Below, piece by piece: positions 26,116-33,381 of a stretch of 34,746 nucleotides of DNA; positions within the stretch are counted from its first letter, which is position 1; each line of letters begins with the position of its first letter. The stretch is from Alcanivorax sp. (lineage in GTDB: Bacteria; Pseudomonadota; Gammaproteobacteria; Pseudomonadales; Alcanivoracaceae), in contig JAKUPL010000035.1 in NCBI GenBank assembly GCA_022449455.1, positions 1-34,746 of the forward strand, given 5' to 3'. Under the pieces are notes generated by a model that was given only the letters and a program-made list of their open reading frames with translations, did no database searches and was not told the origin of the DNA. The position numbers and the translations under genes were made by a program.

Positions 26116-26308
26116 GAATGCTTCGCTCCCCTACGGAATAACCGATCAAGCCGGTTGACGGTTTCGCCCGAGCCTACCGCAAAAGCGACCCGGTCGCCGC
26201 GCCGCAAAAGTAAAGGCTGGTAAACGCCACACCGCCGTGTCGGCGGGGCCGCCGGTGCACTACACTCTGCCTCTACCGTGTATGGCGACGAGGAAGACCA
26301 CAACGTCC

Positions 26309-26653
26309 ATGGCCAACTACATCAAACTGCGCGCCCGTCTGATGCGCGACGACGACATCGCCTTCGGCCCCGGCAAGGCGCAACTGCTGGACGCCATCGA
26401 AAGCACCGGCTCGATTTCCGCGGCGGCCCGCGAGGTGGGCATGAGCTACCGGCGCGCCTGGCTGCTGGTGGACACCATGAACCGCTGCTTCCGGGAGCCG
26501 TTGGTCCATTCCGCCCCCGGCGGCAAGCACGGCGGCGGCGCCGAGGTCACCGAGGCAGGGCGGCGTATTCGCCAGCGTTACCGGCAGATGGAACAGGCGC
26601 TGCGTGATCTGGCCGACGACTTCGAAACAAGCCTGGAGAACGAACTGAACTGA
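26309..26653 (+). CDS. Stand-alone ModE-type winged-helix regulator
   Basis: The 114-residue protein is the N-terminal DNA-binding domain of ModE without the molybdate-binding Mop/TOBE domains. Signatures: LLDAIESTGSISAAAREVGMSYRRAW (helix-turn-helix), then the wing with GGKHGGGAEVTEAGRRI and a C-terminal dimerising helix. In full ModE, molybdate binds the missing domains, so this form must sense metal another way or through a partner. The start is set at MANYIKLRARLM (26309), where the family usually begins, with AGGAAG about 12 bases upstream; ATG at 26282 is an alternative. It lies 118 bp upstream of a TonB-dependent receptor whose promoter carries a ModE-like box. Confidence 0.88.
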   Translation: MANYIKLRARLMRDDDIAFGPGKAQLLDAIESTGSISAAAREVGMSYRRAWLLVDTMNRCFREPLVHSAPGGKHGGGAEVTEAGRRIRQRYRQMEQALRDLADDFETSLENELN

Positions 26654-26693
26654 ACGCCCGGCAAAACCCGCCGGTCACGCTGCTGGCTTTTCT

Positions 26694-26727
26694 TTGACTA
26701 CCGCTATATCCTGCCATGCATAACGAA
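26694..26727 (+). promoter_or_regulatory. ModE-box-like operator over a promoter
   Basis: CGCTAT (26702-26707) and ATAACG (26720-26725) form an inverted repeat with a 12-bp spacer. The extended form ACCGCTATATC-N6-TGCATAACGAA is close to the ModE consensus ATCGCTATATA-N6-TATATAACGAT as I remember it: about 9 of 11 and 8 of 11 matches. TTGACT at 26694-26699 is a good -35 box immediately upstream, and CATAAC at 26719-26724 a weak -10 (19-bp spacing), so a bound dimer would cover the promoter of the TonB-dependent receptor. Seen directly: the repeat and position. Inferred: ModE-type repression. Confidence 0.7.
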
Positions 26728-26771
26728 TTTTAACAGTCGTACCATTCGCTCGTCAGCCAGAGAGTTTTTCC

Positions 26772-28814
26772 ATGAACGTTTTTCTTTTTCCGGCGGCCCT
26801 GTGCCTGCCGGTGGCTTCGCTTTGCCTGCCGGCCCACGCCGCTCCCTCCCCTGAATCCGGCGACCGCTTCGAACTGGGCGTTCTGGAACCGGTGGTGGTG
26901 CAAGGGGACGGCATCGACGCCGACCAGACCAGTACCCACTCCACCGTCACCAGCGACGATATGCGCCGCTTCAACCGCACCGACGTCTCCCAGGCGCTGG
27001 AGCTGCTGCCCGGCGTCAATACCGTGATGATGGGCGGTCGCAGTGAGCGGCTGATCAATGTACGCGGCTTCGACTCTCGCCAGGTGCCGCTGTTTATCGA
27101 TGGCATTCCGGTGTACGTGCCCTACGACGGCAACATCGATCTGTCCCGTCTGACCACCTACGACGTGGCGGAAATCTCGGTGAGCAAGGGCTACACCTCG
27201 CTGTTGGCCGGCCCCAACACCCTCGGCGGCGCCATCAACGTGGTCGGTCGCCGGCCCCGGCTGGGCACCGAGGCGGAAGCCGGCTACGGCATGAGCTTCG
27301 ACGATCGCTTCTCGCGCAACGCCTGGGACAGCTACGCCAACGTGGGCACCAACCAGGGCCGCTGGTACGCCCAGGTCGGTGGCTCGATCCGCGATCAGGA
27401 CTATTTCCCGTTGGCCGGTGACTTCGACCCCACCGCCGACGAAGACGGCGGCCGCCGGGAGAACTCGGAATACACCGACCGCAAACTGTCGCTGCGTCTG
27501 GGCTTTACCCCCAACGCCTCCGACGAATACGTGTTCAGCTATTACAAGCAGGACGGTGAGAAGCAGACGCCCCCCTATGCCGGTGACGATCCCAACACCC
27601 GGGTGCGTTTCTGGCAGTGGCCCTGGTACGACAAGGAAAGCTTCTACTTCAATTCCAAGACCCGGCTGCATGAGCATCTGGAGGCCAGGCTGCGGCTCTA
27701 CTACGACAGCTTCGAGAATTCGCTGCGCTCCTACGACGACGCCACTTACAGCAGCATGAACCGGCCCTACGCCTTCGACAGCACCTACGACGATTACTCC
27801 TGGGGCGGCAGCGTGGAACTGGGCACCGACCTGTTCGAGCGCCACGATCTGCGCCTGGCGGTGCATTACAAAACCGACGTTCACCGCGAAGTGGGCGACA
27901 TCGGCGAGCCGGAGCAGCGCTTTGAAGACCGCACCGTCTCGGTGGGCGTGGAAGACCGCTTCGCCGCCACCGACCGGCTGACGCTGCTGGCCGGCATCAG
28001 CTATGACCGGCTGCGCGGCGAGCAGGCCGACAATCTGGTCAACGGCACCATCGAACCGTTCGAGCTGGCGTCCACCTCGGCGGTCAATCTGCAGGCCGGC
28101 GCCCTGCTCGCCTTCCACGACCACCTCAAAGGCCGCCTGATCGCCTCCAAGCGCAGCCGTTACCCGACCATCAAGGACCGCTACTCGTTCCGCATGGGCT
28201 CGGCGCTGCCGAACCCGGATCTGGACGCGGAAACCAGCACCGGCGTGGAAGCCGGTCTGGCCGGCGACCTGCTGGTCGGCACCAATACGCCGATGCATTG
28301 GGGCGCCGCGGTGTTCCGCAACGAGATCGACGACAGCATCCAAAGCATCGCCATCGACAACGGCCTGTGCAGCTCGCCGCCCTGCTCGCAATTGCAGAAC
28401 GTGGCGGAGTCGGTGCTGCAGGGCGCCGAGGCGGAGCTGACCGTGAACCTGGGCAACGCCTGGCAATACCACCTCAACTACACCTACCTGCACCGGGACA
28501 ACAAGTCCGACCCGGACCTGCGCGCTCTGGACACCCCCCGCCACAGCGGCTTCACCTATCTAAGCTGGTTCCTGGGCGACACCTGGACCCTCACCGCCAG
28601 CGCCCGTGCCGACAGCGGCCGCTACAACGACAGCGACGGCACGCGGCAAACCGCCGGTTTCGTCACCACCGGCCTCAAGGCCGCCTGGCGGCCGCTGCCG
28701 CAATGGCAGCTGGAAGCCGGCGTGGACAACCTGGGCGACAAGCTCTACGCCTATGACGAGGGCTACTACGAGCCGGGCCGCACCTACTTCACCAAGGTGC
28801 GCTGGCGCTACTGA
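26772..28814 (+). CDS. TonB-dependent outer-membrane receptor
   Basis: The 680-residue protein has a signal peptide (cleavage near AHA-AP), a possible TonB box (LEPVVVQGDG), a plug domain (about 45-160, with LELLPGVNTV, LINVRGFDSRQVPLFIDGIPVY and GPNTLGGAINVV) and a 22-stranded barrel ending in the aromatic WRY. It should move a scarce ligand across the outer membrane with TonB energy. A Cys pair at 533/538 lies in a probable outer loop. The ModE-type gene just upstream and the ModE-like box in its promoter suggest molybdate, tungstate or a metallophore complex as ligand, unlike the iron or cobalamin usual for the family. It leads an operon with a small secreted protein and a di-haem protein. 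Confidence 0.93.
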   Translation: MNVFLFPAALCLPVASLCLPAHAAPSPESGDRFELGVLEPVVVQGDGIDADQTSTHSTVTSDDMRRFNRTDVSQALELLPGVNTVMMGGRSERLINVRGFDSRQVPLFIDGIPVYVPYDGNIDLSRLTTYDVAEISVSKGYTSLLAGPNTLGGAINVVGRRPRLGTEAEAGYGMSFDDRFSRNAWDSYANVGTNQGRWYAQVGGSIRDQDYFPLAGDFDPTADEDGGRRENSEYTDRKLSLRLGFTPNASDEYVFSYYKQDGEKQTPPYAGDDPNTRVRFWQWPWYDKESFYFNSKTRLHEHLEARLRLYYDSFENSLRSYDDATYSSMNRPYAFDSTYDDYSWGGSVELGTDLFERHDLRLAVHYKTDVHREVGDIGEPEQRFEDRTVSVGVEDRFAATDRLTLLAGISYDRLRGEQADNLVNGTIEPFELASTSAVNLQAGALLAFHDHLKGRLIASKRSRYPTIKDRYSFRMGSALPNPDLDAETSTGVEAGLAGDLLVGTNTPMHWGAAVFRNEIDDSIQSIAIDNGLCSSPPCSQLQNVAESVLQGAEAELTVNLGNAWQYHLNYTYLHRDNKSDPDLRALDTPRHSGFTYLSWFLGDTWTLTASARADSGRYNDSDGTRQTAGFVTTGLKAAWRPLPQWQLEAGVDNLGDKLYAYDEGYYEPGRTYFTKVRWRY

Positions 28815-28849: not shown

Positions 28850-29386
28850 ATGACATTCGTTTCCCGTTACGCCGCCCTGGCGCTGCTCGCCCTGCCGCTG
28901 GCCGCGCCGGCCATGGACGCCGGCGAGGCCGACGGCTGTGCCACCTACGAAGCGCCGGAACAGGCCGTGATCGAACGGCTCACCGCGCCCTCTCTGCCCG
29001 AGCCCCGCGGCGCGGAAGGCGCGGCCCCGGCGCGCCTCGACACCGGCACCGCTTACCGCGCCACGCTATCACCCCAGGACGACTTTGCGTTCGCCGCCGA
29101 ACCCGGCCGCCATACCCTCGCGGACGGCGCCTACGCCGGCGCCTTCGTGTTCCACACCGACCGGGCCGGCCCCTATCGCGCCTACATCGACGACGCCAGC
29201 TGGGTGGATCTGGTGGACAAGGACGGCGCCCTGGTGCCCTCGGAGGATTTCGGCGGCCGCCACCAATGCGAGGCGCTGCGCAAGTTCGTGGTCTATTCCT
29301 TGGACGCGGATCGGGACTATGTGCTGCAACTGAGCGGCGGCACCCGGCAGCGCGTGCGCGTGCTGGTGCAACCGGACCGTCGCTGA
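28850..29386 (+). CDS. Small secreted periplasmic protein of the receptor operon
   Basis: The 178-residue product has a signal peptide (cleavage near APA-MD) and no membrane helix. It has two Cys after cleavage (in DGCATY and RHQCEALRK), probably one disulfide. The second half (AGPYRAYIDDASWVDLVDKDGALV...LQLSGG) reads like a beta-sandwich domain. Similar small proteins occur, as far as I recall, beside TonB-dependent receptors, sometimes with misleading names; the function is unknown. It lies 35 bp after the receptor gene, and its TGA shares one base with the next ATG (TGATG), so it is translationally linked with the di-haem gene. A periplasmic binding or receptor-accessory role is a guess. 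Confidence 0.8.
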   Translation: MTFVSRYAALALLALPLAAPAMDAGEADGCATYEAPEQAVIERLTAPSLPEPRGAEGAAPARLDTGTAYRATLSPQDDFAFAAEPGRHTLADGAYAGAFVFHTDRAGPYRAYIDDASWVDLVDKDGALVPSEDFGGRHQCEALRKFVVYSLDADRDYVLQLSGGTRQRVRVLVQPDRR

Positions 29387-30639
29387 TGGGCCAGCCACGA
29401 TGGCGGTGGCCTCTGTCATTACTGCTTGTGGCACTGATCGGCCAGGCCGGTGCCGGGCCGGCGCCGGACCCGCGCCGGGGCGAGGCGTTCTTCAACACCG
29501 CCTTCGTGGCGGCGCCCTCCCCGGCCAGCCTGCGCGACGGGCTCGGCCCGCTGTTCAACGCCGCCGCCTGCGACCAGTGTCATAGCCGCGGCGGCCGGCG
29601 CGTGCGGCCCGCCGACGGCGAGCCGCTGCCCACCGGTCTGGTGATGCAACTCAGCCAGCGGAAGGCGGGCGGCGCCCGGGGCCCCCACGACGCCTACGGC
29701 ACCACCTTCAATCCGCTGGCGGTGGCCGGCGTGCCCGCCGAGGGCCGGATAACCGTGCGCTGGCGCACCCGGCACGGCCGCTACACGGATGGCGAGGGCT
29801 GGCGGCTGCAAACGCCGGACTATGAATTCCAGGCGCTCAGCCTCGGCCCCCTGGGCGAGGCGGCGGCGTTCTCCGTGCGCGGCGCCGCCGCCCTGGACGG
29901 TGTCGGGGCGCTGGCGGCTATTCCAACGGCGGTGATCCTGGCCGGGGCGGATGCCGGCGACCGGGACGGCGACGGCATCAGCGGTCGGCCCAACTGGATC
30001 GAGGTGGACGGCGAACGGCGCCTGGGTCGCTTCGGCTGGAAGGCCAACCACCCGGACCTGGAAACACAGATCGCCGCGGCCCTGATCAACGAGCAGGGCA
30101 TCACCACCTCGCGACGTCCGGAATCCGGCTGCGCCCCGCCGCAGCGGCGCTGCCGGGCGGCGCCCAACGGCGGCGAGCCGGAGATGGCCGACGACGACCT
30201 GGCCGCCCTGGTGGCGTTCGTCGCCGGGCTGGCACCGCCGGCGCCGGTGGCCGATCCGTCCGGCGACGGCGCCGAGCTGTTCCGCGCGCTGGGCTGCGCC
30301 GCCTGCCATCGACCGTCCATCGAATGGCGGCAACAGGGACGAACGGCGCGCCTGGCACCGTACACGGATTTGCTGCTGCACGATCTTGGCGAAGGGTTGG
30401 CCGACCATCGACCGGACCACGACGCCGACGGCCGGGAATGGCGCACCGCGCCGCTGTGGGGGCTGGGGCGGGCGCGCCGTGCCGGGCTGCCAGCCTGCTA
30501 CCTGCACGATTGCCGCGCGCGCACCCTGGAGGAAGCGGTTCTCTGGCACGGCGGCGAAGCCGCCGCCAGCCGGGACGCCTTCACCACCCTGCCCGGCCCG
30601 CGCCGGCGGGCGCTGCTCCACTTTCTGGAAGGCCTTTGA
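29386..30639 (+). CDS. Di-haem oxidoreductase-like (DHOR) periplasmic protein
   Basis: The 417-residue protein has a signal peptide and two haem c sites, C62-DQCH and C304-AACH. The layout matches the di-haem 'thiol oxidoreductase-like' family (DHOR, related to cytochrome c peroxidase). Typical segments are FNAAACDQCH with AGG-rich surroundings, RDGDGISGRPNWIE, RFGWKANHPDLETQIAAALINEQGI and TDLLLHDLGEGLAD. The C-terminal PLWGLGRA and FLEGL are also family-like. Members often stand in iron- or metal-uptake operons with imelysin proteins; no imelysin gene is present here. Third and last gene of the TonB-receptor operon; it could change the redox state of the imported metal or of its carrier, which is inference. 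Confidence 0.88.
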   Translation: MGQPRWRWPLSLLLVALIGQAGAGPAPDPRRGEAFFNTAFVAAPSPASLRDGLGPLFNAAACDQCHSRGGRRVRPADGEPLPTGLVMQLSQRKAGGARGPHDAYGTTFNPLAVAGVPAEGRITVRWRTRHGRYTDGEGWRLQTPDYEFQALSLGPLGEAAAFSVRGAAALDGVGALAAIPTAVILAGADAGDRDGDGISGRPNWIEVDGERRLGRFGWKANHPDLETQIAAALINEQGITTSRRPESGCAPPQRRCRAAPNGGEPEMADDDLAALVAFVAGLAPPAPVADPSGDGAELFRALGCAACHRPSIEWRQQGRTARLAPYTDLLLHDLGEGLADHRPDHDADGREWRTAPLWGLGRARRAGLPACYLHDCRARTLEEAVLWHGGEAAASRDAFTTLPGPRRRALLHFLEGL

Positions 30640-33072: not shown

Positions 33073-33381
33073 TCAGGAGCGGCGGCCGCCTCCGTGGCTG
33101 CGCTGACCGCCCTTGCGGCCGGCTTCCGCCGCCCGTTGCGGGTCGTTCTTGAAGTTGCCGGAACTGTGCTCACCGCCTTTCTCTCCGGCCTGGGCGGCCA
33201 GGTCCCGGTCGTGCTTGAAATTACCCGGGCTGTTCTGTCCACCTTTCCCGCCGGCTTCGGCGGCGCGCTCCGGGTCATTCTTGAAGTTGCCGGGGCTTTC
33301 CTCGCCGCCTTTCTGGCCGGCACGGGAAGCGCGTTCACGATCCTCGGCAAAGTTTCCAGAACCTCCACGATGTTCAGTCAT
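33073..33381 (-). CDS. KGG-repeat stress-induced protein
   Basis: The 102-residue, very hydrophilic protein consists mostly of four tandem 22-residue repeats of the form (S/P)GNFxxDxxxAxxAGxKGGxxS, the KGG motif known from GsiB-like general stress proteins. No hydrophobic core, signal peptide or membrane helix, so it is probably intrinsically disordered and protects against drying, heat or osmotic stress, as suggested for the family. AAGGAGAG stands 9 bases before the ATG. The repeats also exist at DNA level (66-bp units) and create long open frames on the other strand that are not genes. It forms its own unit with a terminator downstream. Confidence 0.93.
   Translation of the reverse strand: MTEHRGGSGNFAEDRERASRAGQKGGEESPGNFKNDPERAAEAGGKGGQNSPGNFKHDRDLAAQAGEKGGEHSSGNFKNDPQRAAEAGRKGGQRSHGGGRRS

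Follow-up and report, generated by a model that had tools for sequence, protein, structure and literature searches.

Predicted energy-driven uptake of molybdenum species by a TonB-dependent receptor under a ModE-type operator in Alcanivorax

What would a TonB-dependent receptor (TBDR) carry across the outer membrane if its expression were governed by a molybdenum regulator? Free molybdate is small enough for porins in the established view and is usually assumed to reach the periplasm passively. The question is raised by a locus of Alcanivorax sp. on contig JAKUPL010000035.1 of assembly GCA_022449455.1, the whole 34,746 nucleotides of which were analyzed and are called the window (contig G000:C29, part of a 4.22-Mb genome). 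There, a gene for a short ModE-type regulator is followed by a ModE-type operator and a receptor gene. Judged from sequence comparison, the receptor is most probably an energy-driven outer-membrane importer of molybdenum species, held under ModE-type repression via the operator at 26702-26725.

All elements of the locus lie on the plus strand. The predicted operator, CGCTATATCCTGCCATGCATAACG, spans 24 bp (26702-26725), was recognized by pattern match and conservation, and places the core CGNTAT-N12-ATANCG upstream of the receptor gene. Its exact form, CGCTAT-N12-ATAACG, falls within the span 26694-26727 given in the initial annotation and fits the E. coli ModE consensus as cited in the available part of PMC545781. 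The receptor gene (26772-28814) encodes 680 residues with a PF07715 plug and a PF00593 barrel, for which 22 strands were counted from the DSSP elements of a predicted model. The stretch EPVVV at residues 39-43 resembles a TonB box by eye, and residues 40-53 are of low confidence in the model. Receptors of three named Alloalcanivorax species are 90-93% identical to it, from which the window is taken to come from that genus. The regulator gene (26309-26653) encodes 114 residues, a DNA-binding domain only, matching TIGR00637 and the solved chains 2ijl, 1o7l, and 1b9m; a GTG at 26237 is a possible alternative start, giving 138 residues. Domain and pattern matches confirm the succession of ModE-domain gene, ModE site, and TBDR described in the initial annotation. 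The site had also been set directly on the receptor promoter, of which the upstream position holds, but the site stands 46 bp from the ATG and a consensus scan found no plus-strand sigma-70 promoter.

Two further genes (28850-30639), absent from the initial annotation, appear to belong to the receptor unit. The first (28850-29386) encodes p178, an exported-looking 178-residue protein with a predicted beta-sandwich, and the second (29386-30639) a di-haem oxidoreductase (DHOR) of 417 residues with a PF06537 match (E 7e-62) and two CXXCH haem motifs. The coding regions of receptor, p178, and DHOR are separated by gaps of 35 bp or a one-base overlap, an operon-like arrangement. A terminator-like stem with a T-rich tail lies between the regulator gene and the operator (26670-26687), as seen by consensus scan, where one was found against 0.4 expected in shuffles.

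What is telling about the operator is its position and conservation. In the window the exact site has a single occurrence, and none of 100 dinucleotide shuffles of this stretch produced it with spacers of 10-14. The looser core has a single place in the whole genome, both strands read, and that place is upstream of this receptor; the genome holds 19 TBDR plug domains. Since the core has no other place, the predicted operator appears to serve the receptor operon alone. A backwards control pattern also has a single place in the genome, and the core is present somewhere in 85 of 94 relatives' genomes, so that the genome count is near chance and the weight falls on position and conservation. Within the genus, 5 of 13 genomes, counting that of the window, have the ModE-type gene, and 4 of 13 have the receptor. 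All four members with the receptor keep the operator, with 24-26 of 26 bases identical over the site plus 2 bp. The flanks diverge in ungapped comparison, to 12-25 of 40 bases upstream and 2-20 of 20 downstream.

Conservation of the operator extends beyond the genus. Scanning with an alignment of six receptor sequences yielded 381 relatives, and the 80 best of them were analyzed. Four of these come from genomes already in the genus or wider comparison (L083, L084, and L085 are judged to be from the Alloalcanivorax genomes G003, G012, and G011, and L114 from G074) and are counted once in the 80, as named loci. For L114 and L082, a metagenome-assembled genome labeled Verrucomicrobiaceae carries the locus; its contig seems to be the same as in G074, which the genome search puts in the window's order, and the label or the binning looks wrong. 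Perfect 10/10 cores stand upstream of the receptor in 32 of 78 relatives (L131 and L140 dropped), against 2 of 553 other open reading frames (ORFs) of at least 250 residues in the same loci. Cores at 9/10 precede a further 15 of 78 receptors and 9 of 553 other ORFs. When 79 upstream stretches (L140 only dropped) were shuffled, 0 were obtained at 10/10 and 1.1 at 9/10, and two control patterns had no perfect match upstream of receptors. Thirteen Flavobacterium receptors carry a variant, CAGTAT-N12-ATACTG, also found at 4 of 553 other ORFs; it was read off the same promoters and is hence descriptive only. In some Flavobacterium loci the variant occurs two or three times, including a position immediately downstream of the short ModE gene (e.g., L162:7949 and L148:5114/5185/7819).

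The company kept by these receptors is that of molybdenum metabolism. Neighbors were counted within about 11 kb, in loci whose extent was further limited by a cut at 8 kb or by the end of the contig, and the assignments depend on the E-value limits chosen. A ModE-domain gene lies near 40 of the 80 receptors, in 29 loci as a form of at most 170 residues, in 13 as a form of at least 250 residues, and in two as both. With modA near 20 receptors and molbindin near 12, at least one of the three is present in 46 of 80 loci, and adding the perfect operators and the Flavobacterium variant gives a molybdenum link in 64 of 80. Individual loci are explicit. In L081, a two-TOBE molbindin gene, modA, modB, and a gene for a ModC-like ATPase (below cut-off) precede the receptor; in L082, a molybdopterin oxidoreductase gene is followed by a perfect operator, the receptor, a solute-binding protein, DHOR, and a two-TOBE molbindin. 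In the cases tested, modA and modB score above the cut-offs of the NCBI molybdate models. The initial annotation would have been refuted by receptor homologues firmly tied to iron or another ligand; on comparative grounds, the homologues are tied to molybdenum genes instead. Operator enrichment and gene company likewise support its suggestion of active uptake through a ModE-controlled TBDR, as a prediction from sequence.

The regulator carries a ModE-type winged-helix DNA-binding domain. Against TIGR00637, the ModE domain model, it scores 95.4 bits, just below the NCBI cut-off of 98.5. Among solved ModE-type chains, phmmer places 2ijl first (E 4e-24), a 135-residue protein deposited as a molybdenum-binding transcriptional repressor, followed by 1o7l/1b9m, the E. 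coli ModE (E 4e-13). ModE genes that encode only the DNA-binding part, with an unclear sensing mechanism, were noted earlier in delta-proteobacteria (PMC545781, available part). No modABC appears in the window's ORF list as read by eye, in agreement with the initial annotation, and the genome's modABC lies on another contig, contig 25 (ModA by NCBI model, ModC-like match below cut-off, ModB by eye). Together with three PF00384 hits (molybdopterin oxidoreductase family), this ModABC implies that the genome needs molybdenum. The genome has a second protein with a ModE-like DNA-binding domain, on contig 56 (L002:1444-2529). It has 361 residues and an extended C-terminal part, was regarded as a different kind of regulator and was set aside; by eye, its gene adjoins a NuoE/FdsG-like ORF.

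Downstream of the receptors, genes appear as exchangeable parts. Partners were analyzed over 91 loci, the 80 plus 11 plasmid loci, for which partner types were assigned by hand. DHOR (35 of 80) and a CCP/MauG-type di-haem protein (16 of 80) never share a locus. The same holds for the middle position, where a solute-binding protein (31 loci), p178 (9), and a downstream PF00174-like protein (31, one doubtful) are mutually exclusive in the 80 loci; the doubtful sequence (L129) looks like a wrong-frame ORF. A MolB-like permease (9 of 91) is never found with a di-haem enzyme (56 of 91; naive hypergeometric probability 9e-5) nor with modA (20). In an alignment of ten p178 sequences, C30 and C140 are invariant; the signal peptide was judged by eye, and neither Pfam nor NCBIfam matches p178 at E 0.001. 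PF00174-type proteins have a molybdenum-ligating cysteine. Molybdopterin binding by the PF00174-like partners was considered and rejected, as 16 of the 31 have no cysteine or one in their last 150 residues; the ligating cysteine is not generally kept, and cofactor uptake is therefore not proposed. Export of the solute-binding proteins by the TAT route is likewise not claimed, with an RRxF-type motif in only 11 of 35 rows.

More distant relatives were sought by a separate tblastn of plasmid records, which gave 23 records at 32-39% identity, 11 of them fetched. The most instructive is an operon in an E. coli plasmid record, encoding a MolA-like protein, a permease, an ATPase, a methyltransferase, ModD (504 bits to the NCBI model), and, last, the receptor. 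Its site, CGATATATATGTAAATATATAGCG, has a perfect core and starts 48 bp upstream of the first gene. Site and gene order are the same in a chromosomal copy, and the perfect core is present in both copies read (L167:2353-8827 and L178:3077-9551). The permease is closest among solved chains to HI1471 (MolB; E 5e-65), with FhuB next (3e-49). The binding protein has its best PDB match in 4pag (2e-25), with HI_1472 (MolA) a weak second (E 5e-8), and the ATPase has no PDB match at a strict limit of 1e-40. ABC genes of this operon are publicly annotated as iron transport, and its receptor gene occurs in 2102 of the 5426 complete genomes of E. coli.

Perfect cores before the receptor or a MolABC-like operon are present in 4 of the 11 fetched records (E. 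coli, P. aeruginosa, Shinella, and Proteus), in Shinella and Proteus together with MolABC-like genes. On the P. aeruginosa plasmid, the core starts 38 bp before the receptor, which is followed by a molybdopterin-dependent-oxidoreductase-type gene (matching the small PF00174-like partners), moaA, and nar genes. Four more records have a 9/10 site before the receptor or operon (Methylorubrum, Paracoccus, and two Azospirillum), and three have neither (Bartonella, Novosphingobium, and Sphingomonas). Of these three, Novosphingobium carries a ModE-domain gene (53%) at a distance of about 2 kb from the receptor and Bartonella has MolABC-like genes. In the Azospirillum records, a TonB-family gene directly follows the receptor, as if its own energizer (L175:8946-9833 and L170:8003-8845).

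The receptor and p178 were also compared by predicted structure. The AlphaFold2 model of the receptor (mean pLDDT 86.6, pTM 0.87) has OprC, Cir, PirA, and PfeA as its nearest solved folds, at 15-20% identity. With topology assigned from model secondary structure and strand 1 assumed to run outward, residues conserved at 90% or more among 47 receptors make up 36 of 111 plug positions (32%), 32 of 152 in extracellular loops (21%), and 2 of 35 in periplasmic turns (6%), with 18% in the outer strand halves against 10% in the inner halves. In the model, this pattern fits a common external ligand, without identifying it. The p178 model (pLDDT 84.6) has a weak match to PPC/collagen-binding-like folds (TM about 0.4).

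A mechanism can be proposed in which molybdenum shortage lifts ModE-type repression at 26702-26725 and the receptor operon is expressed. The TonB-driven receptor would then bring in a molybdenum species (molybdate or tungstate), most likely in chelated form. A chelate is favored because free molybdate fits porins, because the receptor has the fold of receptors for chelates, and because no di-haem enzyme was found beside any of the nine MolABC-type importers, as if there the complex were taken whole. In the periplasm, p178 may take up the ligand, and the di-haem enzyme might help to free the oxyanion for the ModABC encoded elsewhere in the genome; this role of the di-haem enzyme is the weakest step. 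In other bacteria, p178 would be replaced by the solute-binding protein or the small PF00174-like protein, or the periplasmic step by a MolABC-type importer carrying the complex whole.

Several observations weigh against this proposal. The regulator has no TOBE/Mop molybdate-binding domain, Pfam giving HTH_1 only, and the sole TOBE domain found in the genome sits in the ModC-like ORF. For want of the C-terminal TOBE/Mop domains, it is classed here as a ModE-type DNA-binding protein and not as a full ModE. The initial annotation had suggested a genome scan for the site at modABC; the genome's own modA does not share it, the best match being 7/10 in about 560 bp, which is chance level. In genome G002, the ModE-type gene is kept at 96% and followed by rmuC (by eye, from likeness to the window's), and the receptor, p178, di-haem gene, and operator are missing. 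The operator and receptor travel together, and the regulator can persist alone. Sixteen of the 80 relatives, including Azotobacter vinelandii, are without a strict molybdenum link; three of them have a MolB-like permease, four a 9/10 site, and two no usable upstream DNA. The backwards control reached 9/10 at 9 of 78 receptors and 1 of 553 other ORFs, which makes the 9/10 operator class weak; the excess may reflect AT-rich palindromic promoters. On a FastTree tree with long-branch warnings (L083 and the short L142 left out), three switches separate MolABC from di-haem enzymes and six separate the middle partners, and with so few switches the independent evidence for exclusion is modest. Finally, the di-haem gene is missing from the fetched flank in two of the three named Alloalcanivorax relatives.

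The doubts about the regulator are the substance of one rival explanation, by which the short protein does not respond to molybdenum and is a fixed or differently cued repressor retained from a molybdenum regulon. The absence of a molybdate-binding domain from the protein and, apart from ModC's, of any TOBE found in the genome would suit such a repressor, as would the operator-free modA and the regulator's survival without a receptor in G002. The short form nevertheless recurs in molybdenum loci: of the 29 receptor loci among the 80 that carry it, 10 have modA nearby, and in L041 and L043 short ModE-type genes adjoin modA and modB with no such receptor beside them. A repressor blind to molybdenum is rather unlikely, though more plausible than the alternatives that concern the cargo. 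Among these, import of tungsten instead of molybdenum is improbable. Molybdate, tungstate, and their chelates are not distinguishable from the present comparative data, and ModE- and ModA-type proteins also handle tungstate (PMC9171197, in the part available); against it, the tested modA and modB genes match NCBI molybdate models and one relative adjoins nitrate reductase genes (tup and wtp genes were not searched for).

A ferric or other siderophore as the ligand, with ModE control as cross-talk, for instance through catechols that bind both iron and molybdenum, is an equally improbable reading. Some catechol siderophores bind molybdenum. Two enterobactin receptors, FepA and PfeA, are among the nearest folds, the latter in one entry with protochelin (5nc4), relatives are publicly annotated as siderophore or iron transport, and MolA-like binding proteins, a type that also serves siderophores, occur near 7 of 80 relatives. 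Yet many of the neighbors are molybdenum genes, and no iron-specific gene was recognized among 40 neighbor clusters, their names being given by eye (no search for Fur sites was made). Import of copper or another haem-enzyme metal, feeding the di-haem protein or the cytochrome oxidase cluster upstream in the window (names by eye), is very improbable. The copper receptor OprC is the best fold match, but at only 17-19% identity, and the relatives sit with molybdenum genes. CrtA-type copper receptors have 707-911 residues and PepSY_TM genes next to them in over 75% of loci, according to the available part of PMC12914433; the window receptor differs in having 680 residues, followed by p178 and DHOR.

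Elsewhere in the window, the minus strand encodes a small protein of tandem KGG-type repeats (33073-33381; GNFKNDPERAAEAGxKGG), with a longer similar ORF in G002 (L037:3937-4374), and a glycine-rich repetitive protein of 679 residues with repeated CP...PTTPIDCL units (139-2178).

An importer of molybdenum species, as preferred here for the window receptor, can be set beside several known systems. E. coli ModE-modABC has the same 24-bp operator core and spacing and a homologous DNA-binding domain. The window differs in that the target is an outer-membrane receptor, the regulator is without molybdate-binding domains, and the organism's own modA is without the operator. The H. influenzae importer MolBC-A (HI1470-1472) is related through the MolB-like permeases that adjoin 9 of 91 receptor relatives, the E. 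coli copy being closest to HI1471. Molybdate represses its molB about 10-fold, acting via a factor that is unknown (PMC4031551, available part). MolBC-A was not seen in the window, and the part of PMC4031551 available names no outer-membrane receptor. P. aeruginosa ModA-IcmP is described in the accessible parts of PMC8602904, PMC9171197, and PMC11734730 as delivering molybdate actively across the outer membrane, and in this it resembles the system predicted here. OprC (copper), CrtA (copper), and MnoT (manganese) are, from what is available of PMC8602904 and PMC12914433, likewise TBDRs for a scarce metal under metal-responsive control; they differ from the window receptor in their metals, regulators, and neighbors. 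A search of literature titles and abstracts found no ModE-controlled or molybdate TBDR; regulon databases lay outside the search, and an earlier prediction is possible. A 2024 TBDR review (PMC11658791) contains neither "molybd" nor "tungst" in its accessible text, which means little because nickel and copper are absent from it too.

The protein families of this locus and its operator are known, and the way in which they are combined implies a new transport route. That ModE-linked receptors form a family spanning Proteobacteria and Bacteroidetes implies that uptake through the outer membrane is energy-driven and that the cargo is probably chelated. On this view, receptors at present annotated as iron or siderophore transport would be reassigned, periplasmic di-haem enzymes and p178 would gain roles, and the use of molybdophores by bacteria could be tested by deleting a single gene in laboratory species that are easy to handle. 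More tentatively, it is possible that the family reflects a widespread molybdophore pathway, in which ModE-controlled receptors import a molybdenum chelate that is either split in the periplasm or carried whole by MolABC. In one branch, an exchangeable di-haem enzyme (DHOR or MauG/CCP) would split the chelate oxidatively with one of three periplasmic proteins and pass the oxyanion to ModABC. In the other, the whole complex would enter the cytoplasm via MolABC and be processed with ModD and methyltransferase partners. If true, the pathway takes in the E. coli operon annotated as iron transport, the receptor gene of which is carried by more than one in three complete genomes of the species.

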